A stretch of 64,000 bases of DNA from Daedaleopsis sinensis (Eukaryota > Basidiomycota > Agaricomycetes > Polyporales > Polyporaceae). Both the position numbers and the translations under genes were made by a program. The notes under the pieces are model-generated. The model worked only from the letters and a program-made list of their open reading frames with translations. It did no database searches and had not been told where the DNA came from. The DNA is taken from the NCBI GenBank assembly GCA_033807695.1, contig CM066307.1:186001-250000 (forward strand). Reading direction: 5' to 3'. Shown piece by piece: positions 5,418 to 34,600 of the stretch. Numbering within the stretch: position 1 is the first letter of the stretch; each line of letters begins with the position of its first letter.

Positions 5418-5489
5418 CTATGCAGTCTCTTGCGGATGCGCGATCAGCTTCAACGCGCTGACCTTGTTCTGCCTCAACCTCTCCAAGCC
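5418..5489 (-). pseudogene. Detached 3' end of reductase copy A (last exon, part b)
   Basis: Read on the minus strand this encodes GLERLRQNKVSALKLIAHPQ, then ETA and a stop, the canonical C-terminus seen in reductase copies B-F. It is exactly the part missing from copy A at 23560. The two pieces overlap by an 11-bp sequence (CTCTCCAAGCC) present at both ends of the intervening 18-kb element. Removing the element and one copy of the 11-mer restores a last exon of 120 bp, the same length as in copy B. So this is not an independent relic but the tail of copy A. Confidence 0.92.
5479..5489. repeat. Target-site duplication, left copy (CTCTCCAAGCC)
   Basis: An 11-bp identity with 23560-23570. It belongs to the reductase copy A coding sequence on both sides. 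The real duplication may be 8-11 bp, because part of the identity could be coincidental; 8 bp is the usual length reported for KDZ-type insertions. Confidence 0.85.
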
Positions 5490-6130
5490 ACACAATTCAG
5501 TATAAATACCCTACTATACTTACCATTAAACGTTGTTAAATGGGTACCATCGGTGGACCATTATTCTTGATTAATATTGTCTAAAGGTAGGCCATGGTAG
5601 ACTAATTGTGATGGCCAATATGGTCAGTACAGTGTGCCATTTATGCTGATATCTCACACACTAGCAATTGGGTGGTACAGTCTGATATAACAATTGGCAC
5701 TATTTATTCCTCACTACACCACACCAATTCATGCATCCTACTTTACCAGTACAATATGTCAATTCATGCACTTCTATTCCCCAGTGAACTTGACCATTTC
5801 AATTGTGACAACCTTTGTAAATATACAGTTTGGTGAGCTGATTGCTTCATGTATACGTGTAGTGTACTGTGCTGATCAGAAGGCTGAAATGTCTACCTGA
5901 CTACTATGATTTAAAGTATACTAAAGCCCTCTATACCTGTACTATTATTTACTGTTTAATGACCTGCCTTGGTCAGCCAATTGTGTTGAGTTGATGTCCA
6001 CGGTCGTGCATGTAATAGCATAGACTAATCCACTGTACACTACATAGATTCTCAATAACCACTGGTCTGTATCTTATGGTCCACCATTCTCGCCGACAGT
6101 ATGACCACGTCGGGTGCAACCCAGCTGCTG
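5490..6130. other. AT-rich left end of the KDZ-TET element
   Basis: Noncoding, AT-rich sequence with several CAATTGG-type words, unlike the CCGG-rich interior that begins near 6180. Similar words occur at the right end (23273-23559). A 68-codon plus frame at 5694-5900 has no features of a gene. Confidence 0.5.
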
Positions 6131-6615
6131 GCTGTGGAGATCATACAGGATCTCCGGCAGATGGTCATCTTGCACCCCATCAAGCCCGATGCATGAAACC
6201 CGGGAACCCGGCAGTGCCACCATGTCCGGTGAATGAAACCCGGGCTTCCGGGAGCACCACCATGTCCGGTGGACCATAAAGCGGTGGTGCTGGAGAGCAT
6301 ACAAGATCTCCGGCAGATGGTCATGCTGCACTCCATCACGCATGAGACCGAGGCAGCCGGTATCACTGTATTGCAACAAGTGTTCCTCTCACCACACCGC
6401 CAATCAGTTTTGGGAAGACCAGTGGAACAGCTCAAGTTGAGATGTGCTATGCTCTATCAAGCCCGATGCATGAAACCCGGGAACCCGGCAGTGCCACCAT
6501 GTCCGGTGAATGAAACCCGGGCTTCCGGGAGCACCACCATGTCCGGTGGACCATACAGCGGCGGTGCTGGAGAGCATACAAGATCTCCGGCAGATGATCA
6601 TGCCGTGCTCCATCA
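6131..6615 (+). repeat. Subterminal direct repeats, spacing 277 bp
   Basis: A block of about 155 bp starting at 6181 recurs starting at 6458 with few changes. Each contains a partly inverted pair of AAGCCCGG/CCGGGCTT and ATGTCCGG words followed by an ATACAAGATCTCCGGCAGAT segment. A third, partial copy precedes the first (6131-6180). These are the densest AWGYCCGG clusters near the left end and may be transposase or regulatory binding sites. Confidence 0.8.
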
Positions 6616-6965
6616 TGCAGGACGTCTGCATGAGACCTAGGGGGCTACTAGCACCATCCCCCATGTAACCGTGGAGTCGCTCACTTGAGAACTATGCATT
6701 ATGTCACTGGGGTTCCCAATGTCCGGGGGTTAGACCGGGGCATCTCCGATCGCTACTGCACGGACATATATGAACCCCAGACTGACTCCAATTTAACATT
6801 TCGTTACTGTTTCAAAGCACTGAGTGCTGGCAACAGGTGTTACCATGCCCGGGATTTCTCCGTCAGCTTTCTTCAGTCCCAGTCTGCAATTTTGAAATTC
6901 TATCGAAGTCTGCCAGATACTGCTTTAGGCAATAACAGTGTCTAGTAGTGTACAAGGGTGCATCA

Positions 6966-7765
6966 TCAATTAGCATTCTCCTTACCCAGCGTACTACTGA
7001 TCAGCCATGCATTATAGTCCACCCAGCCCTGGGCGTTCAGCCGTCCCAGCCTCCTGACCACCTCTCGGGCTTCACTCCCAACTCGCTCCCAGGCCGCAAT
7101 ATCCCCGGCGATGACTACCCTTCGATGAACCCCGGTAATCATACAGTCTGTGGCTACGGAACGCCACAAAGCCCGTCCTTCTTGACTGGAGAGTGTTGAC
7201 GGATGTTCTTGCACCTCAGGATGGACGATTGACTGTTGAGGGTCCTGCAGAGCAGGCACACTGGAGGGTGGCTCTGTTGGTGATCGGAGTCCGATAGGTG
7301 CCAAGCGCGGCTTCTTACGGGCTTCTCCCTCGGGTTGTGCGTCGGGTTTCGGAGAATCCACGGTAATTGGCGGTAAACGACGTTTCCGGGCGACCATTGC
7401 TGCTGGTGGAATGTCACGAAGCCTGACTTCGTGTAGAGGGGGCTCAGCAGCAATGGGCCCCATCCGGGGTCGTTTCTAAATATTGTTAGCGTACAGAGTG
7501 CACACAAGAGGGACCGGGCTTACCGCAGGCACCGGCCGGACTTCACTTGTCTCGGGCTTTGCGTCACTGTCCAATGAGATCGCGCCGTCTGGGATAAGAC
7601 CAATGGGGGGCAGGCGAGATTGTCTCTGGCTACTCGTTAGTAGAAGCAGAAACACTTATAATTCAAACCTACCTTGCGTGGAGGTGGGGGATTGTCAAGA
7701 CCGGGGTCTACAATCCCCGGAACTGAACTCCCAACATCAGTCGCCGGGGCTTCCAAATCGTGCAT
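6966..7765 (-). CDS. Element gene 1: unknown, about 234 aa
   Basis: Three exons, 7765-7673, 7625-7524 and 7475-6966 (93, 102 and 510 bp, all phase 0), joined by introns of 47 and 48 bp with GT..AG ends. The product is unrecognised. It is Pro/Arg-rich in the first two thirds, with a duplicated motif RLPPIGL / RLAPIGL, basic KKR/RKR clusters suggesting nuclear localisation, and a more ordered C-terminal helical part containing RALWRSVATDC and AREVVRRLGRL. It is transcribed divergently from gene 2 with 325 bp between start codons. It lies wholly inside the KDZ-TET element, so it is probably an accessory gene of the transposon rather than a host gene. Confidence 0.6.
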
Positions 7766-8090
7766 GTTTACTGTTCATCACCGTGTCAGTACTAATAGTT
7801 CTGGACTAATATGTACCTCTCCAGGTCTTACATGTATTGCTCTGGATTTCTACTGGACCATTGCATCAGTGTGGGTCAGTACACAATTGGTCCAGCACGT
7901 TTAGTGACTCACGGTGTCCAAAAGGTAGCAGACTTGAAGCGAAATCAGCAAATTGCATGACTTGGTCATCGCATCAATCGCTTTCCCACGGCGCGAGAGG
8001 ACGCGACTCCTTGACGCCCACACCCCTTGTCAGTCGCTGTGTGGTCTCTTCTGCTCTTGTCTTCCACCTTCTCGCCCTCCGCTGCTTGTT
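7766..8090. promoter_or_regulatory. Divergent promoter region of element genes 1 and 2
   Basis: The 325-bp spacer between the opposed start codons (ATG at 7765 on minus, ATG at 8091 on plus) must hold both promoters. No TATA-like box stands out. It contains fewer AWGYCCGG words than the flanking genes. Confidence 0.45.
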
Positions 8091-11077
8091 ATGTCTCTCG
8101 CGAACGTCCCCGCCTCTTACTCTGCTTCTCTCGCGCAGCTCTACCAGCGGAGTGATGAATGCCACAGTGCCTGGCTCGTCCGACCCCCATCCAACTCACC
8201 TCAATTCCGACAGTGGGAAGACCAATTCGACAACGACCTAGAGCGCATGGGGGAGGTGGTCACCGCCCTCAACGCCAACAAGTCAGCACCATCATGCCCG
8301 GTCCCCCCCTTCGTGCTTGCCTGGATCGCCGAGCACAACCGTTCTTGGCAGCCCGGTGCGACGTTCAGCTATGACCGCCTCGACCCCGCAAACGCACCCG
8401 CCCAGTTTGGCATCTTCGTGTGCGCAGCGTCGCATAAGATGGTCGTTAGGGATGGATGGTGGGATGCATATGCAGGTACGCCCTGATAACACTGCCAGTC
8501 TAGCTTGTACTAATCGACACCGCTCGTCAAACCTGGTTCCCTGGCCATACAAGCCCCTGCCAAACCCGCTCCCCCCAAACCCACTCCTTCTCCAGCTCCC
8601 CCCAAGCCCACTCCCGCTCCCACAGACCCCTCCCCATCTACTCCCGCTCCGGGTGAGGATGAGCCTCCAAACCCGGCTGCTCGCTCCAAACATTCTCGGA
8701 AACGGGCTCTAATCACGCCGGAGACCATCTCGGACTCTGACGACGAGGACGAGAACACTCTCCTACCAGCTCGGGGTAGACGAGCGAACAGAGTTCGCGT
8801 CGTCATTCCTGTCCCTCCTCCAGGCGAAGGTCCCAAGCGCAAGAAGTTGAAGACGTCTTCCACCCCCAACCCCGAGCCGGTCTCGAAGCCCGGGCCTTCC
8901 TCCAAACCCGACGCGGTCTCAAAGCCCGGACCCTCATCCAAACCCGAGCCGGTCTCGAAGCCCGGACCCTCCTCCAAACCCGCCACTGTGAAGCCCGGCG
9001 ATCACTCAGCCCGGACCTCGACCGAGCCCTCAAACAAGGCCAAGAGCAAACTGAAAGCCGCAGCGGTCCCAGTGGAGGAAGAGGACTCAGGTAGCGGCGA
9101 GGAGGAAGATGAGGAAGACGAGGATCAGAAGGGGGAAGACAGTGGTTTTATCATGTGGGAGGACAGCGAGCCCCATGGTCTAGTGAGATCCCCGGTGCGA
9201 ATGGTGCGTACTAACCATCCTCTTCCTCGTTGGGATTACTGACCTACCATCCCTTACAGAGGGTGAAGTGTCATGCGTGCGCGGTCCAGGGCCGGTTCTG
9301 CGCGGTCGACTTCACCCGCGGGGTCACCTGCCTCAGCTGCAAGGACAAGGCTTGCAAGTGCAGCTTCCGCTTGGTGCAGCCCGTCTTCGCAGACCCCGGG
9401 TCACGCAGCGCCCATGGTTGGCAGCGAGTGCAGGAGGCGTATATTGTTTGGAAATGGGCAAACGAGGCAAAGGTCAGCGACGAGCACCCATGCGCGTCCA
9501 TCCCTTCCTTCGTCACCGGCAGCCTCGACTTCAAGCCCCCTGCATGGTACACCACCGCGTACCACCAACTCACCCGCAAGAAGTCGAAGGGCAAGGAGGT
9601 CATTGACCTCACCTTCCAGTCTTCCGACGACCCGCCCACTCCTGCCAAAACTAAGTCCGCCCGGGGGAAGACCGCGACAAAGCCCGCGTCGACAAAGCCC
9701 GAGAAGGCGAAGCCCGAGAAGGCGAAGCCCGAGAAGGCGAAGCCCGAGAAGGCGAAGCCCGAGAAGGCGAAGCCCGAGAAGGCGAAGCCCGAGAAGGCGA
9801 AGCCCGAGAAAGCGAAGCCCGAGAAGGCGAAGTCCGGCCCATCCAAGTCCGAGATGGGGGTTGCAAAGGGCGAGTCCTCCAAGCCTGACAGGAAGCGTAC
9901 ACGGTCGAGCGAACCCGGGGATGAAGCAGCCCGCAAACGCGCTCGCCCCTCTGCCAGCAAGCCTGCTTCAGGGGATGCAAGTGAGGCGGATGGGGCTCTG
10001 GTCCACGGCACTCGACTCGCAGTACGCGTCTCTCCTGAACAGAGTACGTAGTCGTGCAGCCCATCTCCCTTACCTGTTTGCTCATGTACTGACAAGGGCC
10101 TTGGGGCTCTATTCAAACAGTGGCACAGCTCTTAGAGCTCCGGCGTGAGACCGAGTCCCAGGACGGCCATGGTAAGTCCACTAACCGGGCTTTGTTCGGG
10201 CGACTTCAGTTCCTCCCGGGCATTACTGATATTAACATCTTCAGCTTCTGCCGTGGATGGGGTCGAGTTCATCCGGGTCGAGGACCTCGTCCTGAACCCC
10301 TCGGACATGAGCAAGACCCCTGAAGCCCGGATCTTGGCACGCTTGGACGCTGTCGAGAAAAAGTACGATGCGGCCATGGCATTGATTCAAGCCAGCGTTG
10401 ACAGCGTTAAGGCCTCCATCGACGCGCTGAAGGTGCAGTTTGAGGAGCAGCAACATCAGATCGACTGGCTCGCTGAGCAGGTGGGGTGCGACGGATATAC
10501 CCCGGTGAGTACATTCCCACTTTTTCTGCCGGACAGTCGCTCACCAACTCCGGCTGTTCGCCGTCCATCCCCGCAGGAAGCCCGAACCCAGTCCTCTCCG
10601 ACAGCCTCCGGCTTTGGTGAGCTGGGCACACCCCGACCGTCTATCTCTTCCACCCCCCCCTCACCGCGCTCCTCCGGCCATCACACCTCATCGCCCACGC
10701 CACCTTCTGCCCCCTCACCCCCCCCCATACCAATGTCATCCTGGCACAAGTGGGGCTTCAAGATGCCCTCCCGCACCTGGATGTTTGAGCAGGTGCCCGG
10801 CAGCTCTCCTATGCCCGGGAATCACGAAGCCGAGGAGCCGCCAGCACCGGTCGTCCTGGACATTGAGATGAGGGGACAGCAGCCTGTCAGCGCCCTGCCG
10901 GCCTCTTCCTCCACTGCTGGCGACATCTCCGTGCCTCCTCCTCCGACTCTATCTCCACCGCCGCTTCCGCCCCATGAGCCGTCAAGCCCGGCGGGCAAGT
11001 CCGGTGTAGAGCAGGAGCAGGAAGAAGAGGGCGAGGCAGAGCAAGTCGGGGATGAGGTGACGGACATTTCTGTTTAA
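8091..11077 (+). CDS. Element gene 2: Cys-cluster, low-complexity nuclear-type protein
   Basis: A multi-exon gene. The first exon starts [10 protein letters not shown] at 8091 and ends near 8476. The next (about 8520-9202) is Pro/Lys/Ser-rich with repeated [16 protein letters not shown] units and an acidic EEDEEDED tract. The third (about 9261-10043) opens with a cysteine cluster (CHAC..C....CLSC...CKC) and continues into ten or so EKAKP pentapeptides and basic KRTR/RKRAR motifs. Then come a short exon, a coiled-coil exon (about 10245-10503: [20 protein letters not shown]...) and a Pro/Ser-rich acidic C-terminus ending at 11077. I do not recognise a family. The cysteine cluster plus nuclear-type basic tracts suggest a DNA- or chromatin-binding accessory protein of the transposon; this is inference. 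Confidence 0.6.
9690..9835 (+). repeat. 15-bp tandem repeat encoding EKAKP
   Basis: About nine to ten units of GAGAAGGCGAAGCCC in frame inside gene 2. Each unit carries AAGCCCG, so the repeat also multiplies the element-wide octamer core. One unit differs (GAGAAAGCG), and the rest look identical, implying recent expansion or homogenisation. Confidence 0.9.
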
Positions 11078-11548
11078 CTCTCAGGACATTTGTATCTAGG
11101 TTACAGTGCTCAGTGCTCGCATCGTTCTGTCTGCTCGTAGTCCCCGTATAATCCGCATTAATGACATATTTGTACCTTTGTTTGAGTTGGAGTTGGCCAA
11201 GACAATGCCCGGTTTCTTGTCCGGGCTTTACGTTGCAATATGTCAACTAAGAGCCAGGCTCTGTGGCTCAAGGCACAGAGCTGCTATTGCCATTTATACA
11301 CATTAGAAAACTGTTATAACAAGCTCAGTTCTCGCGATGCTTGTAATCAAAGCCCGTGTTTGACCCGGGCATCCTTTTGAATAATGCGCGGCGGGCTTCC
11401 AGTTGAACACCGGTAAGTACACAGACATTGTCAGTGGCAGAGCCAGCTAACTAAATATACAGAGGGAAGCAATGGAGTATTATTTGCAACTCCTATACAT
11501 TGCGTGCACACATGAATAAATACTCGTACAAAACATAGTCCACCGGTC
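11078..11548. terminator. Convergent 3' spacer between genes 2 and 3
   Basis: 470 bp between the stop of gene 2 (plus) and the stop of gene 3 (minus), so it holds both 3' UTRs and polyadenylation regions. It contains several AWGYCCGG words (for example near 11205, 11220 and 11368). No gene is seen. Confidence 0.4.
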
Positions 11549-14500
11549 TCAGCCAGTTGTTCGCTGTCGGGGTCTGCGAGGCCTCGTGGAGCGCCGAGGT
11601 GCAACGGCCACAGGTTCCCCTTCCTCGGCCTCAGCATCCTCCATCTGGACATCTGGCTCACCTCCCACGTCAGGCTGGCCGATGAACGCGGCCGGAGGGG
11701 ACTGTCGGGTTTGCTGAACCCCGGGCTCATTACCGAGGCGGGCATTATCAACCTGCAGAGACGAAGATCCCTGTGACCCAAAGTCATCCACCCGGAGTCC
11801 AGCAGCAGGAGGCGTACTGGACCTCCTGGCGGCCATAATATCGGCAATATGGGGGAGAAGGACGTAGGGTTTCTGAGCACGGCTCAGGCCTTCATGCGTG
11901 GTGGGGAGTGGTGTAGCTCGGGCTTGGGCGCTGCCGCCTGAAGCCCGGGTGGGCGCGCCGCTGCCTGAAGCCCGGGTGGGCGCGCCGCTGCCTGAAGCCC
12001 GGGTGGGCGCGCCGCTGCCTGAAGCCCGGGTGGGCTCGCCGCTGCCTGAAGCCCGAGGCTCACTCCCGTGAGGTGAAGCCCGGCCATCGGAGTCCGCGTT
12101 CTGGGTCAAGTCACGCATGACCACATCTTCCTCCTCACTGTCGGAGTCCTTGGATGCCTTTTCTACTAGGTGTTTCACGGTGTTTATCGTGGAGGGGGGA
12201 GCAGCGCGAATGCCCGGCGGCCTTCCCTTCTGGCCCTTGAGCTTTTTGACGCTGGGCTGGGTGATCACCGGACCACCGGGCTTCACGATGTCCGACATAG
12301 TTCCCCTCATGTTGCCTCCAGACTCGGCGGGCACGGACATTGCTGATCCGGGAGGAGGCAACAAGTGGTGTGCACCGGCGGCGGCGGGCTCGAGGACGTT
12401 CTCGATGTGTGCAATGGCTGCAGGGCTGTTATGGAGATACTCTGCGCCACCAATGACCGGGCAGTCGGGCTCGATCTCCGTAGCGATCAAGACGTCGCGG
12501 ATGACCATCCCGGCGACGAGAAACCATGTCTGGACCTCAGACGGTGTGGAGTGCTTGTCCTTCTCTGGCCGGCCCTCCCTGATCCAGTTCAAGACCCTGT
12601 TCCAAGTGATCTCGGATTCATGGACGTCGACCGGGCATGAAACAAGGTCCCTCTTCCACGATCCCCACTGAACGGGTATCTCGGGATCGAGTCTGAGCCG
12701 GCGAAGCATCTGTACCCAGTCAATGAGAGTGTGACATAACATGGAGACTAATAGACTTACAACATGCCTCCATGAAGTTAGCAATGCACGATACTCGGGC
12801 ATTGGCCCCAGCGCCCAGAGGTACGGGAACACGCGGTCATCGCCGTTGACCCACGTCGGTGGTTGATACTTGGCTTCGTCGATGAGAGACTGAGGAGGTG
12901 GGATGGTCATGCTGGAGGTCATGGCGATGAGCTCGTTCGTAGACTTGACGGCAGCACGAGGGGCAGGGGGGCGGGGGCGGGTATTGCTGGGCCTGGGCTT
13001 TGATCCATTGTCCGGCCGGACATGAGAAGTCCGAGCATTGTCGGGCCGGACACGGGATGTCCGAGTGTTGTCCTGCCGGACATGGTCCTCGTCCATTGTG
13101 GTGCCCGACCGGTCAGTGAGAGTGGGTTCGTCCTCAGATGAATCATTGTCTGATGACGACTTCGCTTCCTCAGAGTCATCATCAATAGCCCGTGCCTTTC
13201 CCTTGCCCTTACCACCCGATCGTCGCTTGCGGCCACGGGGAGGGCGAGGCGGAAGAGTCGGGCCTTGTACCCCGGGGGGGAGGGCACCGACCGGGCTTTT
13301 GGCATACGCGGGTGGGAGACGTATCTTCGGAGCTGCCGCAACCTTGTTCTTGCCCTTCTTCTGCTTATGCAAGGGGACTGAGGGCTTGTACTCAGCGGGC
13401 ACGATGTCTTTGCCAGCCAGAACGGACTTGAAACGGAAGCGGGAGCCATCTCCTCGGGCTTGGAGCGCTTGGATGACGTTCCAGACCGCGACAGCGGTTT
13501 CCTTGTGCATCTGGCCTGGTTGCTTCAGGGACCGCAAGATGTTGTTCTCAAACAGTCCCTCTGGGAAGAACTCCTCCGGGGATGCTATGACTTTGAGCCA
13601 TGGAACCACCGTGTTTGGCACACCAGAAGCCAGCGCTAGTGGCAGTATGAGCAATCTGCGCAGTGCGGAGTTGCACCGGACTACTCACCGTAATTCTCAT
13701 TGAACCAGGGCCGTAATATCTTCCGCATGGTCTCCCAGTCCGTGATGGGCTTGCCGTCCTTGGTGTCCGGAAGGATGGGAGTGCCGTCGTCGTAATGCTC
13801 GAAGAGATGTGTTTCACCTGACTCAGAAGTTCCGGGGGCTGCGACTTGGTCGGGGTTCAACCAGTCTTCGGCAAAGCGGGCGAGGGACGTCATCGTGGTC
13901 TTCTCCCAATTAGGTTGGGCTTCGGTAAACTTGAGGCCTTTCATACCAGGGAGTTGACTGGTGTCATATCTATAGTCAAGTGCGGCATAGTTAATGTTGA
14001 GCCATTCCCAAGCGGTGGTATCCCTGAACAACCGGACATTACAATCCCCGACGGCCAAGCCCGCCGGGAATCCGAATGTCCGTACAGCAAGTCAAGCCCT
14101 CGGGTATCGCAATGCCCGGGCGCGGGGATCGTCTCGAGTAAAGCAACATACCTCGCGATTTGGATCACACCCTCCGCGTCCTTGTAGCAGAACGCAAAAA
14201 AACAGACAGCTCCAGCCTGCTTCCAGGCAACATCGATGATTCCCTTGGACCAGCTCGGGAGGCGTCGTGTGGCAATCCTGGGGATTAACAAGTTGATCAG
14301 CATGCCCGCCCAACTGAAATGCATCCATGTCCGAGACGTACTTCAGTCGGTCCTCCTCGTCCGGGCCCTCCTCAACCCATGCATCAGCAATGTTCTTGTA
14401 CGCCAGCTGCTGGTTTTCATCCAGCTCGTGCCATAGACGTGAGTGTGCGGTATTCAGGGCCCCGATGCGCTTTGCATTTGTATCGTCCTTGTCAGAGGCC

Positions 14501-14917
14501 TTGTTCTTGTCGGAGGACTTCCCAGCGCCTTTCTCGGCCTCTGCCATCAACTCATCTCGGAGGGCGTAGATCTTCTTCTCTTCAACAACACCGAAGGCTT
14601 CGTAGGGTGTCCACGACGTCTTTAAACCTTGGGGCATCCTCACAGTTGAGCTCGGATTTTTAGCGGACAGATAGGAGCTGAATTTCTGTTGGAACACTTC
14701 AGTCAAAGCTCCGGGCATCACTAAAGCCCGGACGTACCCCGCGGAAGAAGGTAAGATATATTTTGTTGTCTTTTGCTATCTGGCGGGCATCGAGGATGTC
14801 AGCAATGTAAGAGGTCTTGGCCGTTGATTTCTCCTGCTTGCTCATGGTGGGCCACCCCTCAAGTAACTTGTCGAGACGGATCACCTCCTCTTTGGTGAAT
14901 TCAGCTTGGTCGGACAT
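11549..14917 (-). CDS. Element gene 3: large multi-exon protein of unknown function
   Basis: At least six exons read on the minus strand from MSDQAEFTKEEV at 14917, with clean joins at FFRG|VFQQKF, RLK|IATRRLPSW, IQIAR|DTTAWEWL, NENY|ALASGV and RHV|MLRRLRL. The N-terminal 180 residues are helical and Lys/Glu-rich with an LWHELDENQQLAYKNIADAW segment, a type common in transposon-linked basidiomycete proteins. The middle contains a conserved-looking PWFNENYG..SPEEFFPEGLFENNILRSL block, basic GRKRRSGGKGKGK tracts and SRVRPDNAR repeats. The C-terminus has five SGAPTRASG-type nonapeptides and an RRSTRPRRPRQR tail. No enzymatic domain is recognised. Its start faces the TET/JBP gene across 216 bp, so the two may be co-regulated. 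Confidence 0.65.
11935..12060 (-). repeat. 27-bp tandem repeat in gene 3
   Basis: About five 27-bp units, each with AAGCCCGGGTGGGC on the plus strand, encoding SGAPTRASG-like nonapeptides on the minus strand. As with the EKAKP array, the repeat unit is built around the element's AAGCCCGG word. Confidence 0.85.
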
Positions 14918-15133
14918 TGTCGCAGATGTGAAAGGTATTGGATAGGAGGGGCAGTCGAGGGATCCTGGATAGGTGAGTGGGTAGAGCAGCTCCTCTCAAC
15001 CAGGCGGTATACCGCCTGCATCATTGTCCAGATATTATGCACATGGAATAGACCGGTGGCTCGGGCTCGGTCAGGACACTATTGCTGTTCTGGGACTAGT
15101 GCTCAAAGCCATGCTCGCTCGGGCATCATTTTG
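14918..15133. promoter_or_regulatory. Divergent promoter of gene 3 and the TET/JBP gene
   Basis: A 216-bp spacer between opposed ATGs (14917 minus, 15134 plus). It includes CGGACATTG and TCGGGCATC words related to the element motif. A shared, possibly bidirectional promoter is the simplest reading. Confidence 0.5.
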
Positions 15134-16482
15134 ATGGAGTGTTCCAACAAGATCCCTCAATTGTTTGGTTTTCGTACTTCCCCATCATTACTGCTCTACT
15201 TGAACACTGTCATGCAAGCTTCTTTTGACTTTCAAGACCAGGTCTCTGCTCGTCTACAGCTCTTGTTCCAGCAAGCCCGGGCACGACCACCAAGGCCGGA
15301 AATCAATGACCGAGGTAGTTCCGGGCTTCACCACCCATGGTCGCCCATTTTGGAAGACGATCTCCGGAGGGCTGCCCATGTCCTCGCAGCCGCATGGTCA
15401 TTCCGCGGTGCGTGATAGCATCAGATTTAGCAGTGCCTACATCTAAGGCATATGCACTAGTCCCAGTGGAGTGGGACGCGATTGACATGGTTGCGTCGCT
15501 CTCAAAGCATCAGCGCGGCCTGAACTGGGACCGCGAGGATGAGCTGCTGAACATATTTACACCGTTCACGGATGCAGAGCGGGTGCGTCGGGAGGACTAC
15601 CCTCTGCTGGACAGGCCCGCCATTGTCGTGGATTGCTCAGGACACGTGTTGGCTTGGGCCCTGCCTGACATTTTATCTGAAACCCGGCAGGTTCGTACCC
15701 CGACCCGGGTTCCGGACTTTGACTCATCGGCTTGCCGGCATCTAGGCACTGATTCTCGAGGCTACTAGCCATATCAAGACAAAGCTGTCGATGGGACGGG
15801 AGGTTTCAGATCCCTCACTTCGGTGGCGGGAGGCTCCAACGTTCTACTCAGAAGGGAAGGGATGGACCCCCGGGTGCTGGACCGCCACACCCGCGGGCTA
15901 CAGTGTTGGGCACAAGGTATGTCCGGTCGCTTGGAAGCCCGGCCATTGCTGACCGTAGTACAGACCAAGGCATTTCTACCTAGTCCCAGCCGCACTTTGC
16001 AGGCTCCAGAGGCCAAGGAGTGGTGCCGGGCGATGACTGAGACAGGAGCTCTAATCAGTGCTATCCTCAGTGTGGCGCATCCCCGGCTATACGCAGCGGG
16101 TCGGGCTTGCCTCACAGCTATGTCCGCCCATGCCTCAATAGCAGAAGCCCTATCGATCTGGCCAGCTGTATTCAATGCAGTGCAGCTTATCAGCAATCGT
16201 GAAACCCCATATCATCGTGATACTTCTGGTCAGCCGACATGGTTTGATCTCCTCGTGTCTCTGGGTGATTATGGGGAGGCCACGTTGGTTTTACGCAATC
16301 TCGGGATGCAGGTAGCATACAAACCGGGTTCTGCAGTGCTGATGAGCGGGCTTTTAGTGCATCATGGGGTCGCAGAAGTGAAACCCGATAGACTATGCTA
16401 CTCGTGGTTCATGACAGATGCGACCCATGTTAATCATGATATAGATGAGGTTCCTTGGATGGCGACAGATTATTATATGTGA
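15134..16482 (+). CDS. TET/JBP-family 2OG-Fe(II) dioxygenase
   Basis: Four exons, 15134-15407, 15461-15690, 15746-15916 and 15964-16482, with GT..AG introns of 53, 55 and 47 bp. The phases close to a 397-aa protein. The catalytic double-stranded beta-helix core is recognisable: the iron-binding HxD as YHRDTSG (His309, Asp311), then FDLLVSLGDY, the distal iron His in LVHHGV (358 or 359) and the 2-oxoglutarate-binding Arg in PDRLCYSW (Arg368). This layout (NRETPYHRD, lG.Y, Y.PG, Hgv, R) is that of fungal TET/JBP proteins, which oxidise 5-methylcytosine in DNA (shown for a Coprinopsis homologue). A downstream Met at 15212 is an alternative start. The stop lies only 7 bp before a possible start codon of the KDZ transposase. 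Activity is inferred from conserved residues. Confidence 0.85.
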
Positions 16483-16489
16483 TAGAGCA

Positions 16490-19400
16490 ATGTCAAGTTC
16501 CATTATCTTTGATTTCATCCCTGCCCACAACATGGCTCGTCCCCGTGTAAAGCCATACAAGTCTGTTCGTGTCAGCGAGGTATCAGCCAAGCGGACAAGC
16601 CGGGGATTCAAGTATGTACTCAAGCAAGTGCAAATCACTGACCCTGCACTACCGGACATCGAGATACCTGGGACTCCTCATCGTCCTCGACCCGATCCAC
16701 CACAAATGTCACAGACCCCGCGGAGGTTCGGGCCAGAGGGGTTCTTTAGTAGCGATGTTCAATTTACATTTGATGATGAGCAAGACTTGATGAACATGCC
16801 TTGTCGGGTGCGTCTGAGTGATAAACCCGGGTGGCCATTGATTCAGTAGCCCGGGCTTCAATTCCTCGGGCTTTGTGTCCCGATGCAAGTTCCGGATGGC
16901 TGATACCGGGCTTTGACAGACCCCAAACCAGTATCTTCGGCTGTGGCAAGCCCACTACCGGGACCCATACTTGGACGTATTGTATAGTCAAGAAGGTGGA
17001 GGTGACACTGCAATCTGCAAATGTTGGGCCCCTGCGTTGTGGCGATGTCTGGACTGCCTGGGGTCACCAAAGTTCTGTGGAAAGTGCTGCGCAAACCAGC
17101 ACCAACTGCAGCCTTTCCACCAAGTCGAAATGTGGACCGGGTCTCACTACTCGGCTGCATGGCTTCGATCACTGGGAGTTTGCGTCCATCTCGGACATGA
17201 TGGAGCTCAATGTCCGGCAGGCCGGGAATCACCAAGCCCGCTGTCTCGCCCTTCCTCCCCAGACGTCTTCTCACCTGCCACGGCACCCCCTGGATCGTCA
17301 CCCATGTACAGTGAGAGAAACAGCGCTCCTAGCATCTCCACCCGTTCATGTACGTTCACTCTGGATATGACCCTAATCGGATGTTTGAGTTGATGATGTC
17401 CCCAAGCTTCTGCGTCGCCAAACCCGGACACACCCACCCGTTCAACACGGACACTACCCACTAGGCCCAGTGAGTGTAAATCTGTGCATTTAAGGTGGCT
17501 CTTATTAAAGTCCCCACTTTGCAGGAAAGCCCATCATGAAACCCACCGGACTTAACAGCACGCCAGGGCCATCAACACCCAGTGCTGAGCTGTCTACTCC
17601 CCGCCAACAAATCCACCGGGTTTCACCTAGCCCGGACTTCACTGCCAATGCGCCCGGGGACTTTCTTCATCACCGTGGATCCCCAGCTCTCTCCTCCATA
17701 TCCACCCCCATCTCTAAGGGCAAGCGGCGTGCAGAAGACGTGCCGGACAATGAAACCGAGGTCAATACCCGGCGCCGAGAGGATTCGGACTTTGCAAATG
17801 AAGGTCCGGACATGCAGGACATTGTCGACGAAGACCCCGACGACCAGGCAGAGTATGCTAAATGTCCATACATTGCTGAGCGCGAGGGCCCATCTATGCC
17901 TCGGGTGGGTGAGGAGGTATTGCAACACCCCCCTTCCCGTCGAACTGAAAGCCGGTCACATCCCGGGGTCCGGGCTTCTACCATGATGGTCGTTGTTGAT
18001 ACGTCCGGCGTCCACGAGATCCCGTTCATCTTCTGCTCGTGTCCTGGATGTGATAGCATGGACATCCAGTTGCTCCGCATGGGATTTTATCCAGCCACCC
18101 CACGAAGACCCCGAACTGTTTTCACCTCACGCGCACTTGACGACTTCCTCCTGACGAACAAGGAATGTCATACTACGACCATGAACTACTTCAACAAACT
18201 CCGGCGAGTCACCAATGAGACATTTCCACATATGGTGCCGGTAATGACCACTAATATTACTCTACCTTGTGAATGCTTGTACTGACCCTATGCACTGGCT
18301 AGGATCGATATCGGGATTTGCTACGGGTCTCACGTCAGTGGCGAAATCTCAAAAGTCGGAAGAGGAACGGTGTTGGTTACGTCAAGGAGCCGCCAATCAA
18401 ACCCGGCGGGCTTGTTACTTCATGCCCGGCATGTCCCCGACCGGGCTTCAACCTGCCAGAAGGTTGGAAGGAGGACCCAAACCCGTATGAACCACATCAG
18501 CATTGACCGTACTGTGACTTCTGACAGTGTTATGGTAGATGGAAGCACATGGCTACTGTCATTCTAGACGGTAATTTCAGTGCACAACACCAGCATATGA
18601 AAGACCCGGAGAGTGATGTCCGATTAGCTGACGGACATGGTTTCATGGTCACCGATGGCCCGTACAAAGAACACCTGCGCACCGCGGTCACATTTAGACA
18701 GGTACATCTATATCTTTGCCCTTTTACTGGAATGTAATTGAGGTCACCGTGTTATAGAAACTGGTGTGCAATGATCACCGGGCCATACTTGCCGCCGCGT
18801 CCGAGCGGGCTCCACTAGAGTCCACGGGAATAGGTTCAGCAGCCTGCAGCCGACATGGCTTCTTTGTTCCCCATGCCACGGTGGACTTTCAAAAGGGAGA
18901 AGGGTATGTGACTGCCTACAGGCCATGTTTATCATTCACTGATGGAGAACACTTCCTGTCATTGTGAACCCCGGGCACCGGACATTATAATGTCCGTTGT
19001 TTCATACCCGAACATGCGACACCGCAATCACAGCCAGCCCAACATCGACTACTGTGTCTATCAGCTGCAACTGTTCTTGTTCGGGCTGATCCTCTTACTG
19101 ATCTTCTATGATGTCTGGTGTCACTATCATGTCCACCTCGATGAGCGATTTGAACGAAGCCCGGGTTTACACAAACCCGAGGGTCTCACGGTCACTGGGG
19201 GGATTGACCAATTTCATGTCCACGGCCATGTCCGTGAATGCTATGCGCGCTACTCCCCTAACTTTATACCTGGAGCCGGAGTGCAAGATGGCGATGTGCT
19301 GGAGACTCTCTGGATCAACACGAACGAGATCTCGAACAGCACCAGGGGGATGACTACCGGACATCGCCAGGAATCCATCGACGACATCATGGAAGACTCT

Positions 19401-21022
19401 AACTGGAACAAACTTCTCAAAATAGGTGCATCTCTGTCTATCATATTACTGTACAGGTGCGGAAGAATGACCGGTGTGTTGTGTTTTTGCAAGCTCCTGC
19501 GTTAGCGAGAAAGTGGCGCATTGCATGTGCTGAGGTGGGGCCTGCTCGGGAGGCCTTAACAGCCGCCCAGGAGAATGTAACCCCGGAGACAATATCTCAA
19601 TGGGAAGCAATAGCCAAGCATGCAGCTAGTGAGCGATCAAAGAATGTGAAAGCCATGGACATATATGAGGTTGAAGCCCGGAAAGGTGAGCATCTCGTCA
19701 CCGAGCATGATATGTATACTGACAAAGTCAAAGCTCCGACCCGAAGACAAATACAACTTGATCTGACACGGAAGGAGAACGAGGCCATCCGGCAGATGAA
19801 AGGTGCTGCTGCATGGATAAGTCAAGGTCTGAAATTGGAGGAAGAGAGGTGAGTTGTCGGCTTTGCAAGTGATTTCGACGTAAGGGATGACCAATCCCCG
19901 GCCAGACTCTCAGTCTCCGCTAAAGCCCGCGCGCTCAAAGTACAAAGTCCATTGTCCGACAAGCTTGCGCTAGAGCAAATGCGTGCCAATCTGCTCAAGG
20001 AGATTGAGAAGTTCAACAGAAAGATCCCAACCTTCTTTGCCCCTCGAACGCTAGCTGCAGCCCTGGCGGTTACACCGGACCTGTCTTCCATGGGCATGGA
20101 GTGGGACTCCCTCGAAACTACCGACACCCCGGGCTCTGACCGGGTATTCGCTAACCCCGGGGCCGAAGGGTCACCGGACTCTGCCTCCACCACGGTCGTT
20201 CCGGAACGCATTCGGATTGCCCTTCCCTCCTCCCTGGGTCTGGAGTTTTGCAAGACACACGATCTTATGGACCTAGTGCGCACAGAACGTCAGTTACGTG
20301 AAGGGCAGATGAACGATGCTTTACACAATGTCCGGGTATCTGTGGGCTACAAATCCTTCCTGTTCCGCCACGGAGTACGGAAGGCGACCTCACATCGGCA
20401 GAAGCTTCGCAGCTTTGACGATGTGCACTTGGCTGATTCTAACGTGCTCAGTAATGCCCGGGTATACACGACTGCCCGGACATCGTGCCTCGCTCTCTAT
20501 GATGAAAACGACGAGAATGAAGGGCCGGTGTTGAGCGAAGTCCGGGATCGTTACCGGGCTTTGGAGAAGTCCGATCTCAAAGCGAACACCGCCATCATTG
20601 AGCAGGGTGTCAGAGGTGTCCGCCACCTGCATCTTCCCTGGTTCTGGAGTATGGATATTGGAGGTGATGCAGAAGACAGCGAGTGGATGGCCGAGAGTGA
20701 GCTAAACATTGTTTTGCCCCAACTGTACCACTGATAATGATGAACCACAGTGTATCGTGTTGTATGGCTACGGGCACATGCCAGGAAGCTACGTTGGGAG
20801 GAAGAAGTTGTGCTGGTCTGGACGGAGATGGACAGGACGGTCACCGGTCTGGATCTTTGGAAACAGCAGTGGATTGATCGGGCCAAGCGTGATGCCCGAC
20901 CCGGGTATCATGCTTTTGCCAGCCGCCAGGCGGACATGTGGAACGGGCTTGGTCAGCATGCCCGGGGGTTGTTCAATGAGGGCAGGGAGAAGTACAAGGC
21001 ACCAGATGATATATCAGTCTAG
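16490..21022 (+). CDS. KDZ-superfamily transposase with CxC2 cysteine cluster
   Basis: About ten or more exons. The start is at 16490 or, more likely, MARPRVKPYK at 16532. Near 16950-17215 a cysteine/histidine cluster (CKCWAP..RCLDCL...FCGKCC...H, then LGVCVHLGHDG) is followed around 18000-18240 by a VHEIPFIFCSCPGC block and an LLRMGFYPATPRRPRTVFT block, the CxC2 domain typical of KDZ transposases. The RNase H-like core follows: DGNFSAQH (Asp codon at 18567), SRHGFFVPHA, FYDVWCHYHVHL (Asp at 19110), GGIDQFHVHGH, RYSPNFIPGAG and DVLETLW (Glu at 19302). Introns 18241-18302, 18485-18538, 18702-18757, 18904-19033, 19426-19493, 19849-19905 and 20697-20750 keep the frame open to the stop at 21022. 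Exon boundaries between 16800 and 17520 are less certain. It appears intact. Confidence 0.88.
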
Positions 21023-21292
21023 TTACTCCGGAGCAACTGTTATGTATGAGTGCGTCGATGATGATGACCTCATAATCCCCGTCCATGAAGCCCGGAGCCA
21101 AACCCAGCCCGGAATAATACCCGCGGGGTTTGTGGAACCCGCCCTCACCGGCTATGTTAGTACCGGAGGGTGGATTTTCGGGTGTGCATTACATAACTGG
21201 GTGCGTCCGGAGATCACGTGTAAGGGCAGAAAAAATGAGACTGGGCGCTCATGTGTGCTCACAATCTGCGACTCACCATCACCTACTGCCAC

Positions 21293-22064
21293 ATGGACGA
21301 CGTGTCACCAGAAACCATCGTGACTGCCATGGGCTCCGAGCTCCTCATACTGGCCTGGAGAATCGCTGAGGCCGTCGTTGCAATGCCCGCCAATCCGGAC
21401 TCGAATACCCTGGGGCGTTGGAATGCGGGGATTGCCCATGAGCTGGTATGCCGGGCTTTAATGGATCTCAGTCAGTACTGACATATTATCTAGTGGTCTC
21501 TCTCGTCGACCGTTGGAGTTATGGCCCTAGCGTCGCTGCTATCCAACGGTGACATGGACCTTTCAGACCTACCCCCTCCTCTGGTGCAGGCCATACGCTG
21601 TGCGCGGTTCAAAGCCCCGGGCTTGGCGCTCACCGTGGACACGACCAAAATGAATGCCGATGTTTGTCGTGAATATCTCCAAACCGCGAACAACATGTCC
21701 GACGCTCCTTACCCCCAACCCCGGTGGTGGCACTGGCCGGATGAAGCATCACCGCAGTTCTGCCCACCCGCCACTTGGCTGTGTCCACCGGAAGCAGTCG
21801 TATGTGCTCATATAATAAATTCTTGAAGCTTTTTGACTGACTGAAATCTAGCCGCGTCCAATATCCGGGTCTACCACCGATATCATGTATATCGCCGGGT
21901 TTGCGGATGCCGTCAGCCACCAAGCCCGCCTGGAACGGCTCACGCTGCGCGAACACCTCGCTGAAGAGGATGGCCACCAGGCCAGAACATCATTGGCTAT
22001 TTCTGGGGTCTTGCCGGCAACCGTAGCCACTGAAGGAGAGACGGGAGAGGGGAGCCGGACTTGA
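21293..22064 (+). CDS. Element gene 6: unknown, about 223 aa
   Basis: Three exons, 21293-21445, 21494-21799 and 21852-22064 (153, 306 and 213 bp, phase 0), with introns of 48 and 52 bp and GT..AG ends, give a 223-aa protein starting MDDVSPETIV. The product is unrecognised. The N-terminal half is alpha-helical (ELLILAWRIAEAVVAM); the middle has a Trp/Pro-rich RWWHWPDEASPQFCPPATWL segment; the C-terminal end is helical and charged (QARLERLTLREHLAEEDG). An additional 5' exon starting near 21038 (MYECVDDDDLII) is possible, but I could not join it in frame. It follows the KDZ gene in the same orientation. Confidence 0.5.
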
Positions 22065-22190
22065 AGGACCGACTTCGACTGGTTGCCGACAGGGAGTCGG
22101 GTTTCCCATGTCCGAGGTGTTCGGTAGGTGTTGGGGAAGGGAGGGCAGTGGACGCATCAAGGTGACGAGCTCATGGATAGAATAAGATAT

Positions 22191-22376
22191 ATATGTAGCA
22201 TATCTCCATTGGTTCATTTCCCTCGTGCAATGTCTGAGGTATGGTGCCCGGATTCCATACCCGGTGCTAAAGCCCGACCACTTATATGTAGCATATCTCC
22301 ATTGGTTCATTTCCCTCGTGCAATGTCCGAGGTATGATGCCCGGATCCCATACCCGGTGCTAAAGCCCGACCAATT
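22191..22376 (+). repeat. 93-bp tandem duplication near the right end
   Basis: Two near-identical units begin at 22191 and 22284. Each holds ATATGTAGCATATCTCC, an ATGTCYGAGG word, a GCCCGGAT word and a CTAAAGCCCGACCA word. Together with the 6.2-6.6 kb repeats at the left end, they form a pair of motif-rich subterminal regions. Confidence 0.85.
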
Positions 22377-22489
22377 ATGTCCGCTTAGTGTCCGAAGCCT
22401 GTGCCCGGCCCCAATGCCCAATAGCTGATATCTGGGATTTACAAATGATATTCGAAATTAATGCAACTAATGGTGGCACTAATTCCCGG

Positions 22490-23272
22490 TGAGGTGCGGC
22501 AATTGTCAGGACTAATGTGCAGGGAGGTGCGGCAATTGTCGGGACTAATGTGCAGGGAGGTGCGGCAATTGTCGGGACTAATGTGCAGGGAGGTGCGGCA
22601 ATTGTCGGGACTAATGTGCAGGGAGGTGCGGCAATTGTCGGGACTAATGTGCAGGGAGGTGCGGCAATTGTCGGGACTAATGTGCAGGGAGGTGCGGCAA
22701 TTGTCAGCACTAACACACAGGGAGGTGCGGCAATTGTCGGGACTAACGTGCAGAGAGGTGCGGCAATTGTCAGCACTAACACACAGGGAGGTGCAAGAAT
22801 TTGTCTGGACGACGAGAGGGGTGCAGCAAATATGAATGCTGATAGGCAGCAGCGTGCGGAAAATGTCGGGAATAACGGGCAGGGAGGTGCGGCGATTGTC
22901 GGGACTAACGTGCAGGGAGGTGCGGCAATTGTCAGCACTAACACACAGGGAGGTGCAAGAATTTGTCTGGACGACGAGAGGGGTGCAGCAAATATGAATG
23001 CTGATAGGCAGCAGCGTGCGGAAAATGTTGAGAATAACGGGCAGGGAGGTGCGGCAATTGTCGGGACTAACGTGCAGAGAGGTGCGGCAATTGTCGGGAC
23101 TAACACACAGGGAGGTGCAAGAATTTGTCTGGACGACGAGAGGGGTGCAGCAAATATGAATGCTGATAGGCAGCAGCGTGCGGAAAATGTTGAGAATAAC
23201 GGGCAGGGAGGTGCGGCAATTGTCGGGACTAACGGGCAGGGAGGTGCACCAATTGGCAAGGCTAATACATAG
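22490..23272 (+). repeat. 33-bp minisatellite with 162-bp higher-order repeat
   Basis: Seven or so head-to-tail 33-bp units (22490-22720) based on GTGCGGCAATTGTCGGGACT, then about three 162-bp composite units (markers at 22791, 22953 and 23115). Both periods are multiples of three, so the plus frame stays open for 251 codons, reading GGAAIVGTNVQ over and over with an inserted RICLDDERGAANMNADRQQR block. The antisense frame is open too. I cannot tell whether it is translated; no promoter or splice signal stands out. It lies inside the KDZ-TET element next to its right end. Confidence 0.85.
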
Positions 23273-23559
23273 AGTGGTGTGACAATTGGCGAGGCCAACA
23301 TCTAGAGTTGCAATTCCTCCAACAGAAGGCCATCACGCAAGGCCAATTGGCCATAATTAATTACTATTATGGTCACACAGGTAATCACTAATGCTGAGAG
23401 GTCAGATATTATTCATACATCCCACTGGCACTTTAGGCAAAGCCAATCGGTCCACTGACCTGCAACATTATGCCTCATTAATAAAGAAAAATGGGATAGC
23501 GTGATGGGGTGTTTAACAACCAAAAGTGGTTGGTATGCTGATGTTTCTTACTACATGCA
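23273..23559. other. AT-rich right end of the KDZ-TET element
   Basis: Noncoding sequence with CAATTGG and GGCCAATTGG words like the left end. It ends at TACATGCA directly before the duplicated target sequence. Weak similarity of the outer 60 bp to the inverted left end (a TTGTTAAA stretch in both) is not enough to call terminal inverted repeats. Confidence 0.45.
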
Positions 23560-23570
23560 CTCTCCAAGCC
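23560..23570. repeat. Target-site duplication, right copy
   Basis: CTCTCCAAGCC, identical to 5479-5489 and part of the coding sequence of reductase copy A. Confidence 0.85.
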
Positions 23571-26985: not shown

Positions 26986-29900
26986 CTAAATCGTGAAGTT
27001 ATAGAGCTCCTCAACAATCTCCAACTCGCCAATCATATGCGGCGAGAGCGTTTTCAGCCATTCTTCGTCATAACAGTTGCGCCACAACCCGATCGGGGCA
27101 ACACCTTCTTCGACTGGGTTGTCCTGGCTGATAAGACGGGTACAAGGTGTGTTCCCGCTCATTGCGCGACGGTGGACGGGGTGCTTCCAATCCTCGCGAT
27201 ATAACTGGTCCAGTGTATGAAAGAAGTTCCGGAGTTCCGCGCTCTGCCACTGAGCGATGACGATGCGCCATACCGGGGGAAGCTCTTTCTCCGGCCCATT
27301 GGTCTCATCGCCGCTCATGTTGATTGGCTCGAGGGCGGCGAACAAGGAGATATGGCGATGCAACTGAGGGCGACGGAAGATCACCACCGCGCGAGATTGA
27401 TGGAGCTATGTGGGACGGAGTTGCGTGAGCCACAAACAGTTAAGTCACAAGTGGAATAAAAGGGCTCACCGAATGCTTGCGTGAGGTCTGCGCGGCTCGA
27501 CGAGCGATAGCCGCCAGCTTCTCCGGGTCTGGGGGACTCACAGAGTCGCGCCAACGACTGCGACAGTACGGCATATGGTTATCCAGGACCTTGCCTATGA
27601 CCTCCCGTGTGAGAAGCTCAGGCGGGGTTGGATTGTTGAAGTATGCGCCTCCGGCGACTCGTGCGAGGTACTTGTCGATGAAGATTTCGCGAGCTTCCTT
27701 GTTCATAGCGAACTTCTTCCAGGACTCTGCGAAATCGATGCGGAAGTGGGCAGCATCCATCACAAAAGAACCATCTCTCCGTAGATAGGCCGCGATCTCG
27801 TCTGCAGTGAGTCGCGGGTACTGCGCAGCGACGAGGGACCAATCCGTGATGTGGAGCATACTCTCTAGCAGATGACGCACTCGCACCTGTTGAAACGACT
27901 TCAGGGCCATGAATATATGATGAAAGTCGGGGTTATCGTACCCTGAGACGACCAAGATGACGATCCTTGGCCAGTTCCGGATCGTCGCCCTCGTCATCGG
28001 CATCGTCTACTCGACGTCCTTGGTATCGTGCAGCCTTCTCCTGGATGCGGCGGTGCCTCTTGCGCTCTCGAAGCGTAGGGTTCTTGGGCGTACGCACCCG
28101 GGAAGTTTCGGCTGGCGCATTGGCACCATTGGCTGGATGAGCCTCGGAGGGGCGATGATCATTGTCGCGCTGCTTGTCCAGAACCTCTGTGATCAGCTCG
28201 GAACGGAGCTCGGCCAATTCTTGCTTGAGTAGCATTCTAAGGGCCAGTTTAGCGTGACATGCAAAGCATACATAGCATCGAACGCACTGCATCTCTTGCT
28301 GCGCATGCTTCATTTCTTGAATTTGAGACATCATGTACAAGAATGCTTCAGAACCGAAGACGGACGCGCCCTGCGCCGGCTGTTGTGTCGGCAGCTGTTG
28401 TGTCGGTTACATCATAGTAAATTAGAAAGTACCCGCCGCGAAGGCAAAGGCGTAGCACTTACTCGGTGTTGTAGGATAGGGTCAGAGATACCTGGATATA
28501 TCCTAGGAGCATGGTTGTGGTCGGACGGACCCACGGCTGAAGTGCCTGCAGTGTTCTCCTGCCATTGAGTATCCATAATATGGTCATCATCGACGGCACG
28601 TCCCTGAGCAAGTGTCAGAACACGCAACTCCTGAGAAGGTTAGTTACATACCTTGCCCTTATCTGCTGCTCTAGTGGGCTCGTCGGCCACCCGTGGTTTC
28701 CCCAATTGTATTATAAACACCCACATAAGTGCCCGAACCCTTGTGTATTTCGTGGGGGAATTGTAATATCAAACTATGTGCAGGGATTGTAATATAGCAA
28801 GGGGGGGCCGTTGTAATACAAGTCTGGCCAAAAGCGGAGCATTGTAATATCATCTGACATCTTGTACTACTGATTGTAATACATATGGGCTCCTTCTATA
28901 TATCCTTGTACAACTGTTGTAATATCTGTAGGACACCTTGTAAAACCTAGGTCAGGTGATGTTATACAACTGGTAACTATTGTAAAATGATACTGTAATC
29001 ATTGTAAAACAAAAGTGGACCAATCTACCGGTATTTTGGGCGCTTTTTTGATATCCTAATGCAGTAGATCATGATGTCATTGTTTGTGAGCGCTTTTTTG
29101 ATGTCCAAATGCGGTAGGTCCTCTACTGAACTCCCAATATTGCAGCCTATATAGTGCCCCCAGATCTTCATGAAAAGACATGATTGTAGGCTCATTCTGT
29201 TTGCATTTTTGAGTACTATTGGATGGTGTATAGTACCAATTGTATTACCCAATAGAATACTGTATATGCTGCAATTGGGTCATAAACCACTAAATTATGA
29301 TGGTATATTGGCTTATACCAGTAGTAAATGTGCATATAGCTTGATACAAAGGACACCAGTCGATGGTAGGGTGCTGCGGCGCACTAGGGGCAAATATCAT
29401 GGTCATACATGCAGAACTGATGGAGATATACTATATGCAGGGATTTTCAAAAGCTGCACTTGTATTTGGCCAGTACCGGGCTAGCGGGACGTTGGTGCCC
29501 ATCTCCCTTATCACTATTAGACTTGTATCTTTAAGGGCTTTCAAATGAGGTATTACACAGGTCAGATCGTGGACCTGACCTGACACTCTCCTCCTACCTC
29601 ACTTCCCATCAATCCTTTTCTAGCCCCTTGTGCTGTCCATGAAGTGCTACAGAATTTTGTACAGTTTCTTCTGGTTATATTGACAATAGCCTCGTCCATT
29701 TTCAAAGCTCTAGCCCCCTTTACTGGTGCGTGGTGAACTTGTGCACACTTTATGCACCTAAATCATCCAGGCAGAATATCTTTGTGAATATATGGGATCT
29801 TATTGTTCTATTTTTTGCAATGTCTTCCAATTGTGTATCTCTAGCAGTCCTTTTAAGGATATAACGAGAAGCTTGTGCGATACTTGCGAAATACTTAATC

Positions 29901-34009: not shown

Positions 34010-34439
34010 GAAAGGCCCGACAAACTAGGGAACCTGTGGCGCTGCCTCGACGCCCAATTGTTGAGAAGCCGCTGCAGTATCAGAGCTGGTGCCGACCGGC
34101 GGCATCGAGTGCTCTACGACCATCCCAAGAGCACGGTCCTCAGTAGAACTCGAGGCACCAGGTTGGCTGGGAGGCGTTTCTGAAGCCACATGTTCGCTGT
34201 GCGGTGCAGACATAGTGAGAGACGAGGGAAATATTGGGAGGAACACAACGCACAGAGGTGAACTTTTGAATGCTCGGCCAGTGGCAAAGTAGCAAGGCAT
34301 TCTTTGACCTGATTGTGTGCATTAACCATGAACAATCCTGATCAGGACGATATTTTACTGCCAATAGCAGAGAATATCGGACCATTGAGCACAAAGCAAT
34401 CGATAAAGATGATACAATTGGTCAATTTATGGCTTCGCC
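34010..34439. promoter_or_regulatory. Divergent spacer of the two CACTA genes
   Basis: Lies between the proposed starts of the partner gene (34009, minus) and the transposase 5' exon (34440, plus). A further upstream minus start (34213, MSAPHSEHVASE) is an alternative first exon for the partner gene. Confidence 0.4.
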
Positions 34440-34600
34440 ATGAATGCGTACACGATAGAGACAAGTAGTCTCTCCGCCCCAGTTGCTCACGACCTCGAGC
34501 ACCATAACTCCGAAATACAGTCCGAGTTCGGCTACATACGGATGGATGGTATACGTTTGGATGTGCGAAGGGAGGCGAATGTCGTAATCGAACATTGCGA
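34440..34600 (+). CDS. Putative 5' coding segment of the CACTA transposase, split off
   Basis: A 53-codon plus frame starts MNAYTIETSS at 34440 and runs to the edge of foldback element 2. If that element (34601-38030) is left out, the frame continues without a shift into the open frame at 38031 (ILLLRPGDQTDD...). That continuity suggests one exon that has been split. There is no visible target duplication to confirm the exact ancestral junction. Confidence 0.5.

Follow-up and report, generated by a model that had tools for sequence, protein, structure and literature searches.

The VANDAL elements of Arabidopsis are transposons of the MULE type, and their characteristic motif lies chiefly in non-coding tandem repeats. 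In sequence-specific anti-silencing, the short motif is bound by VANC, a factor encoded by the element itself; it has accumulated in the element's own family, is rare elsewhere, and is replaced by other motifs in a related family, as described in two reports (Hosaka 2017, PMC5735166; Sasaki 2023, PMC10398659). In Agaricomycetes, the TET+ Kyakuja transposons carry a KDZ transposase and a TET/JBP gene in one element, and it has been speculated that the TETs of these elements act non-target-specifically (Kojima 2025, PMC12730594). That text makes no mention of CCGG, CpG, an octamer or zinc. Here we describe a TET-bearing KDZ element at about positions 5489-23562 of a 64,000-nucleotide stretch of the Daedaleopsis sinensis genome, which we call the window. 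Like TET+ Kyakuja, it has KDZ transposase and TET/JBP genes together and 7 bp direct repeats at its ends; our analysis adds two differences, a short word typical of each lineage and a zinc-cluster companion gene. As in the VANC/VANDAL system, a short motif is enriched within its family but scarce outside it, and other lineages have other motifs. It differs from that system in that the words are as dense in coding DNA as elsewhere and lie mostly outside arrays, and in its KDZ element, TET enzyme, six-cysteine protein and CCG-core words.

The word AWGYCCGG was counted 71 times in the window. Seventy copies lie on both strands of the element, at 6222-22344, and the other one is at 59803. The variants among the 70 are AAGCCCGG (32), ATGTCCGG (16), ATGCCCGG (14) and AAGTCCGG (8). 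With 6485 such words in all 51.6 Mb (24 contigs) of the genome, 2.3 are expected in the 18 kb element, and the observed number is a 30.8-fold excess over the genome rate. An earlier note on this DNA had estimated about 65 copies at some 30 times chance frequency and almost nowhere else in the window; the counts confirm this observation. The words have diverse flanking sequences and are present in 16 of 18 kilobase bins, i.e. along the whole element.

Such words could in principle come from protein repeats, codon use or tandem duplication. Masking of tandem arrays removed 18 of the 70 words, and two coding arrays do hold them, one of 36 bp at 8866-8982 (+) and one of 27 bp at 11928-12083 (-). 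The earlier note described coding repeats, EKAKP among them, as built from the same word; the EKAKP array in fact holds AAGCCCGA, which is one base off the octamer. The 52 words left after masking still represent a 25-fold excess, and tandem expansion was rejected as the chief source of the words. In a codon-preserving shuffle of 17 homology-supported coding stretches (6993 bases), the mean was 3.7 words with a standard deviation of 1.8 and a maximum of 10 in 2000 shuffles, compared to 24 words observed; these are spread over three frames and both strands. The masked density was equal in the coding core (22 words in 6914 bases) and elsewhere (30 in 9465 bases). These results support the earlier statements that the word occurs on both strands, in coding and other DNA, and that protein constraint alone cannot explain its density. 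With diverse flanks in addition, an origin from repeats, codon use or duplication is very improbable.

The genome contains 22 Tet_JBP hits and 175 exon-level KDZ matches. The 22 TET loci sort into about ten groups by DNA identity, and one copy was taken from each of nine lineages: E10, which is the window element, and E12, E16, E11, E13, E17, E21, E23 and E26, each as about 13.4 kb around TET. One genome was analysed, and the background was 164 kb of the same genome, part of which was picked for containing the octamer or a KDZ gene. Within 3.4 kb, AWGYCCGG is found 14 times in the window type, 14 times in a copy on contig C7, and 13 and 9 times in loci L012 and L016, respectively; the other 18 TET loci have 0-1. 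These counts led us to reject the idea of a general CCGG mark common to all TET elements. Eight of the nine lineages have dispersed words, in classes AWRYCCGG, GGCCCGC, TACCCGG, GTATCCG and CTCCGCG, all with a CCG core. There are five classes because E10, E12 and E16 share the AWRYCCGG-like class and E11 and E13 share another. The masked counts over 12-16 kb are 52 AWGYCCGG in E10, 77 AWRCCCG in E16, 31 AWGTCCG in E12, 21 and 31 GGCCCGC in E11 and E13, respectively, 15 TACCCGG in E17, 16 GTATCCG in E21 and 23 CTCCGCG in E26, whereas the background is 0.9-5.8 per 13 kb depending on the word. Each class is strongest in its own lineage or lineages, and motif profiles gave 22-68 hits per 10 kb in the own lineage as compared to 2.3-2.5 in the background. 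A split-half test took the four top 7-mers from one masked half of each sequence and counted them in its second half; eight of the nine lineages showed their word again. The best single 7-mer score of the 3.4 kb loci was at least 9.6 in 9 of 10 TET groups. L015, which represents the group beyond the nine lineages and was covered over 3.4 kb, has the same word as E13. In all eight worded lineages the own words in coding blocks exceeded the codon shuffle, the observed number being attained in 0 to 16 shuffles per 1000; the words had been selected on the very same sequences. Composition, codon use and letter content were rejected as the source by the codon shuffles and by permuted words. The earlier idea of a dispersed self-marking recognition site is partly supported. 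It withstood both tests by which the note proposed to refute it, since codon-preserving shuffles fall short of the count and the related lineages E12 and E16 have the same word class, but the site is no single, general CCGG mark.

E10 and E16, at 70% DNA identity, could be aligned across some 6.1 kb of coding sequence. Fifteen of 32 words in E10 share an alignment column with one of the 27 words in E16. Permuted words, 1500 in all, had 1.7 sites on average, of which 11.5% were column-shared, and none had more than 13 sites or more than 4 shared ones; the real words of these sister lineages therefore share columns about four times as often. Between E10 and E12, 7 of 20 words are column-shared. 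This sharing indicates that some words were retained and others arose anew. In E10, sequences one mismatch away from AWGYCCGG are 0-3.5-fold at positions 1, 2, 5, 6 and 7 and reach 9.6-fold at positions 3 and 8; the CCG core and the first A and W are strictest and positions 3 and 8 tolerate change, a pattern like that of a site bound by a protein. Pairs of opposite-facing words whose CpGs are 16 apart (CGG-N12-CCG) occur four times in E10 (window 5490-23559) and five times in E16. These pairs are a possible dimer site, and the spacing is only suggestive because some of the E10 and E16 pairs may be homologous to each other.

The best candidate for a reader of the words is a six-cysteine gene upstream of TET, which was absent from the candidates of the earlier note. 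In the window it extends over 7938-11077 (+), as judged from open frames, the E12 frame and E16 homology. It consists of several open frames with provisional exon limits, and the first frame was joined by eye on account of its resemblance to E12, in which the gene forms a single long frame. The Zn2Cys6 pattern is C-X2-C-X6-C-X5-12-C-X2-C-X6-8-C; the window cluster, C-X2-C-X6-C-X9-C-X2-C-X6-C, lies at 9269-9361 (+), and the spacing is Zn2Cys6-like in 9 of 9 lineages, E17 and E21 having X7 for the first X6. The open frame at 10136-11077 (+) likely encodes a coiled coil, as suggested by E16 homology and weak, sub-cut-off Pfam matches of coiled-coil type. As a rule, Zn2Cys6 proteins recognise CGG triplets and form dimers via a coiled coil (PMC5559640). 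The gene is found at 23 places in the genome, 22 of which pair one-to-one with the 22 TET hits, and it is upstream of TET and on the same strand in all 22 elements. A zinc-cluster gene of the E17 type is present at G000:C12:2130305-2130598 (+), on a contig with no Tet_JBP hit. PF00172 (Zn_clus) matches five of the nine segments weakly (best E 0.044), with the window's own segment unmatched; Leu3 is the sole PDB profile match, and all seven Foldseek matches are Zn2Cys6 chains, the matches being weak. A search with the E12 protein returned two metagenome proteins, 89 and 91% identical. The zinc-cluster tree has long branches and no starred branch, and is too weak for comparison with the words. 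The protein resembles regulators such as Gal4, Leu3, Put3, Ppr1 and Pho7 in its cysteine spacing, in all its fold matches, in the CCG/CGG core of the words and in a likely downstream coiled coil, but it differs from them in a sequence match below certainty and in being transposon-borne and linked one-to-one with TET.

With the words, their classes, the constraint on them and the gene linkage established in this analysis, we propose, at a probability of about 0.5, that the words are binding sites of the element's own zinc-cluster protein, which would dock along the element and bring TET to its own copies and not to those of rivals. The protein, with a predicted Zn2Cys6 fold, would dock at words along the element by reading CCG together with lineage-specific flanks. 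Once docked, it would recruit the co-encoded TET dioxygenase, which would oxidise methylcytosine of its own lineage's copies, not rivals', and this oxidation would lift silencing. The finding that other TET lineages have other CCG-core words suggests that word and reader change together. At the same even odds, KDZ-TET transposons would be self-addressed demethylation machines, each lineage having a private word spread over genes and spacers and a private zinc-cluster reader to guide its TET, with several mutually blind systems coexisting in one genome as an independently evolved counterpart of VANC in plants. The present data bear against the speculation of non-target-specific action in Kojima 2025.

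The zinc-cluster protein might instead bind the words to serve the transposition or transcription of the element, with TET acting without an address. The KDZ transposase is in the same element, and transposon proteins binding short repeats of their own element for transposition are known, such as TnpA of En/Spm, which has a reported methylation effect; our literature search on this returned nothing on point. The TnpA sites are near the ends only, there is no dioxygenase and the protein is unrelated, whereas our words run throughout the element. In addition, the zinc-cluster gene tracks TET (22 of 23 places) and not KDZ at large. We consider this alternative possible but doubtful.

It is also conceivable, though somewhat less probable still, that the reader is TET itself, the CxC2 region of the transposase gene or the product of an opposite-strand gene at 11549-14980 (-) in the window, of which there is one per TET element. 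The last gene contains variable repeats and remains a candidate as rival reader or partner; it may or may not be the "gene 2" listed by the earlier note. A Pfam search of its open frames gave no match, and one 110-residue domain of its product (mean predicted local distance difference test score 84.5) had no coherent fold match, with 59 mixed Foldseek matches up to E 10 and none at or below 0.001. The CCG core suits a reader of the Zn2Cys6 type better. In E11 the searched part of this gene has a stop codon (G000:C2:4807597-4807920, +).

We then consider whether mutation rather than selection left the words behind, that is, whether CpGs in a context preferred by TET outlived deamination while others decayed. 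The observed/expected (o/e) ratios in E10, E12 and E16 are 0.78-0.79 for CpG and 1.18-1.21 for TpG, as compared to 1.09 and 1.07 in the background. CCGG is 1.55-2.4-fold in these lineages and the remaining CpG contexts are 0.22-0.96; for E10 itself, CpG o/e is 0.78 and the non-CCGG contexts are 0.35-0.87. This suggests past methylation with CpG decay outside the words. The description of the CpGs as intact by the earlier note is correct for the words of E10, which show no clear decay, and has to be limited to the words because the element's other CpGs are depleted (0.78 vs. 1.09). Although the depletion and raised TpG are what survival would produce, survival cannot give an octamer 24-fold over background while its TpG/CpA forms are near background in E10 (3 vs. 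1.6 and 3 vs. 2.2). The CpA form is raised in E12 (6 vs. 0.8). Moreover, E11, E13, E21 and E26 are worded and yet have CpG o/e of 0.95-1.03, and permuted words of identical letter content are rare. The E10 mismatch spectrum speaks against CpG survival as the origin of the words, and we regard this explanation as improbable.

Several observations weigh against targeting by the zinc-cluster protein or fall short of supporting it. The evidence for its family is weak, and the opposite-strand gene is linked as strictly, with a single copy next to every one of the 22 TET hits. E23 has the genes of a TET element and no clear word, its split-half recurrences being weak (best P 0.025). One of three control pieces from the window flanks also repeated 7-mers, which were AT-rich (ATTACAA, 6 vs. 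0.31; TATTACA, 8 vs. 0.53). A 7-mer score of at least 9.6 was reached in 3 of 27 TET-less KDZ loci (L047, L050 and L051; none is a CCG word), the 27 being 30 minus the near-copies L032, L043 and L054, and in 3 of 8 loci listed for holding AWGYCCGG (L002, L003 and L004). Words also occur off class: AWGTCCG 12 times in E23 and 9 times in E26 against a background of 3.2, AWRCCCG 13 times in both E13 and E17 against 5.8, and TACCCGG 7 times in E16 and 5 times in E10 against 1.0, these last sites being partly AWRCCCG. There is no clear gradient of CpG retention with distance from words. Finally, oxidised methylcytosine on other transposons, cited in Kojima 2025 (PMC12730594), favours untargeted action.

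The TET/JBP dioxygenase gene is at 15194-16831 (+), as supported by homology and by a Tet_JBP domain at 16015-16410, where PF12851 scores 64.3 bits (cut-off 34.9). The KDZ transposase gene at 16917-22058 (+) includes a CxC2 frame (17509-18285) and a KDZ frame (18912-19505), supported by homology and by PF18803 and PF18758 above cut-off, the latter with 94 bits (cut-off 26.6). The left end of the element was placed where the 99% match to the C7 copy begins, and 7-8 bp direct repeats flank both ends. The 7 bp target site duplication TCCAAGC is at 5482-5488 and 23563-23569, and the shared stretch can be read as 8 bp or more. With respect to the 5'-CA..TG-3' termini of Kyakuja-type elements, CA is possible at 5489 and TG is absent at 23562 in that register. 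The C7 copy is 99.6% identical over 3.4 kb; its identity is 99% at the left end but drops to 91% towards the right end, and it has the identical set of 14 words within the compared 3.4 kb.

About 100 bases of the left end were found again at G000:C5:2414201-2414306 (-, 88%) and G000:C3:3197101-3197202 (-, 79%), the latter near the E16 element. The right end is occupied by a 33 bp satellite (consensus GAGGTGCGGCAATTGTCGGGACTAACGTGCAGG; window 22491-23255) without AWGYCCGG. Beyond the element, window 28001-38000 is mostly GC-poor and CpG-poor, with CpG o/e down to 0.33 at 36001-38000 and an exception at 32001-34000; these stretches are perhaps other, decayed mobile elements. Elsewhere in the genome, L004 (G000:C1:92030-95037), outside any TET locus detected, has 8 GGCCTGA and 9 CCGGGCC clustered in 3 kb, and the TET-less KDZ locus L050 (G000:C6:3049926-3053720) has 10 AACTAGT in 3.8 kb, perhaps binding repeats of another kind.

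No prior report of a dispersed lineage word or a zinc-cluster gene in KDZ-TET elements was found in the literature searched, which included PMC12730594, PMC8889193 and PMC12859917 and left most subscription papers and the 2014 papers on these elements outside. Our results bear on the question of why mushroom genomes contain dozens of TET genes on transposons. The lineage-typical words and the strictly linked zinc-cluster gene make targeted TET action directly testable, and the C12 zinc-cluster gene without TET offers a natural setting in which to study words in the absence of TET. If our proposal is true, a transposon would place a regulatory address in its own exons as far as the genetic code allows, and one genome would contain a natural module for targeting TET to several distinct DNA addresses. 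Targeted self-demethylation would then have arisen separately in plants and fungi.
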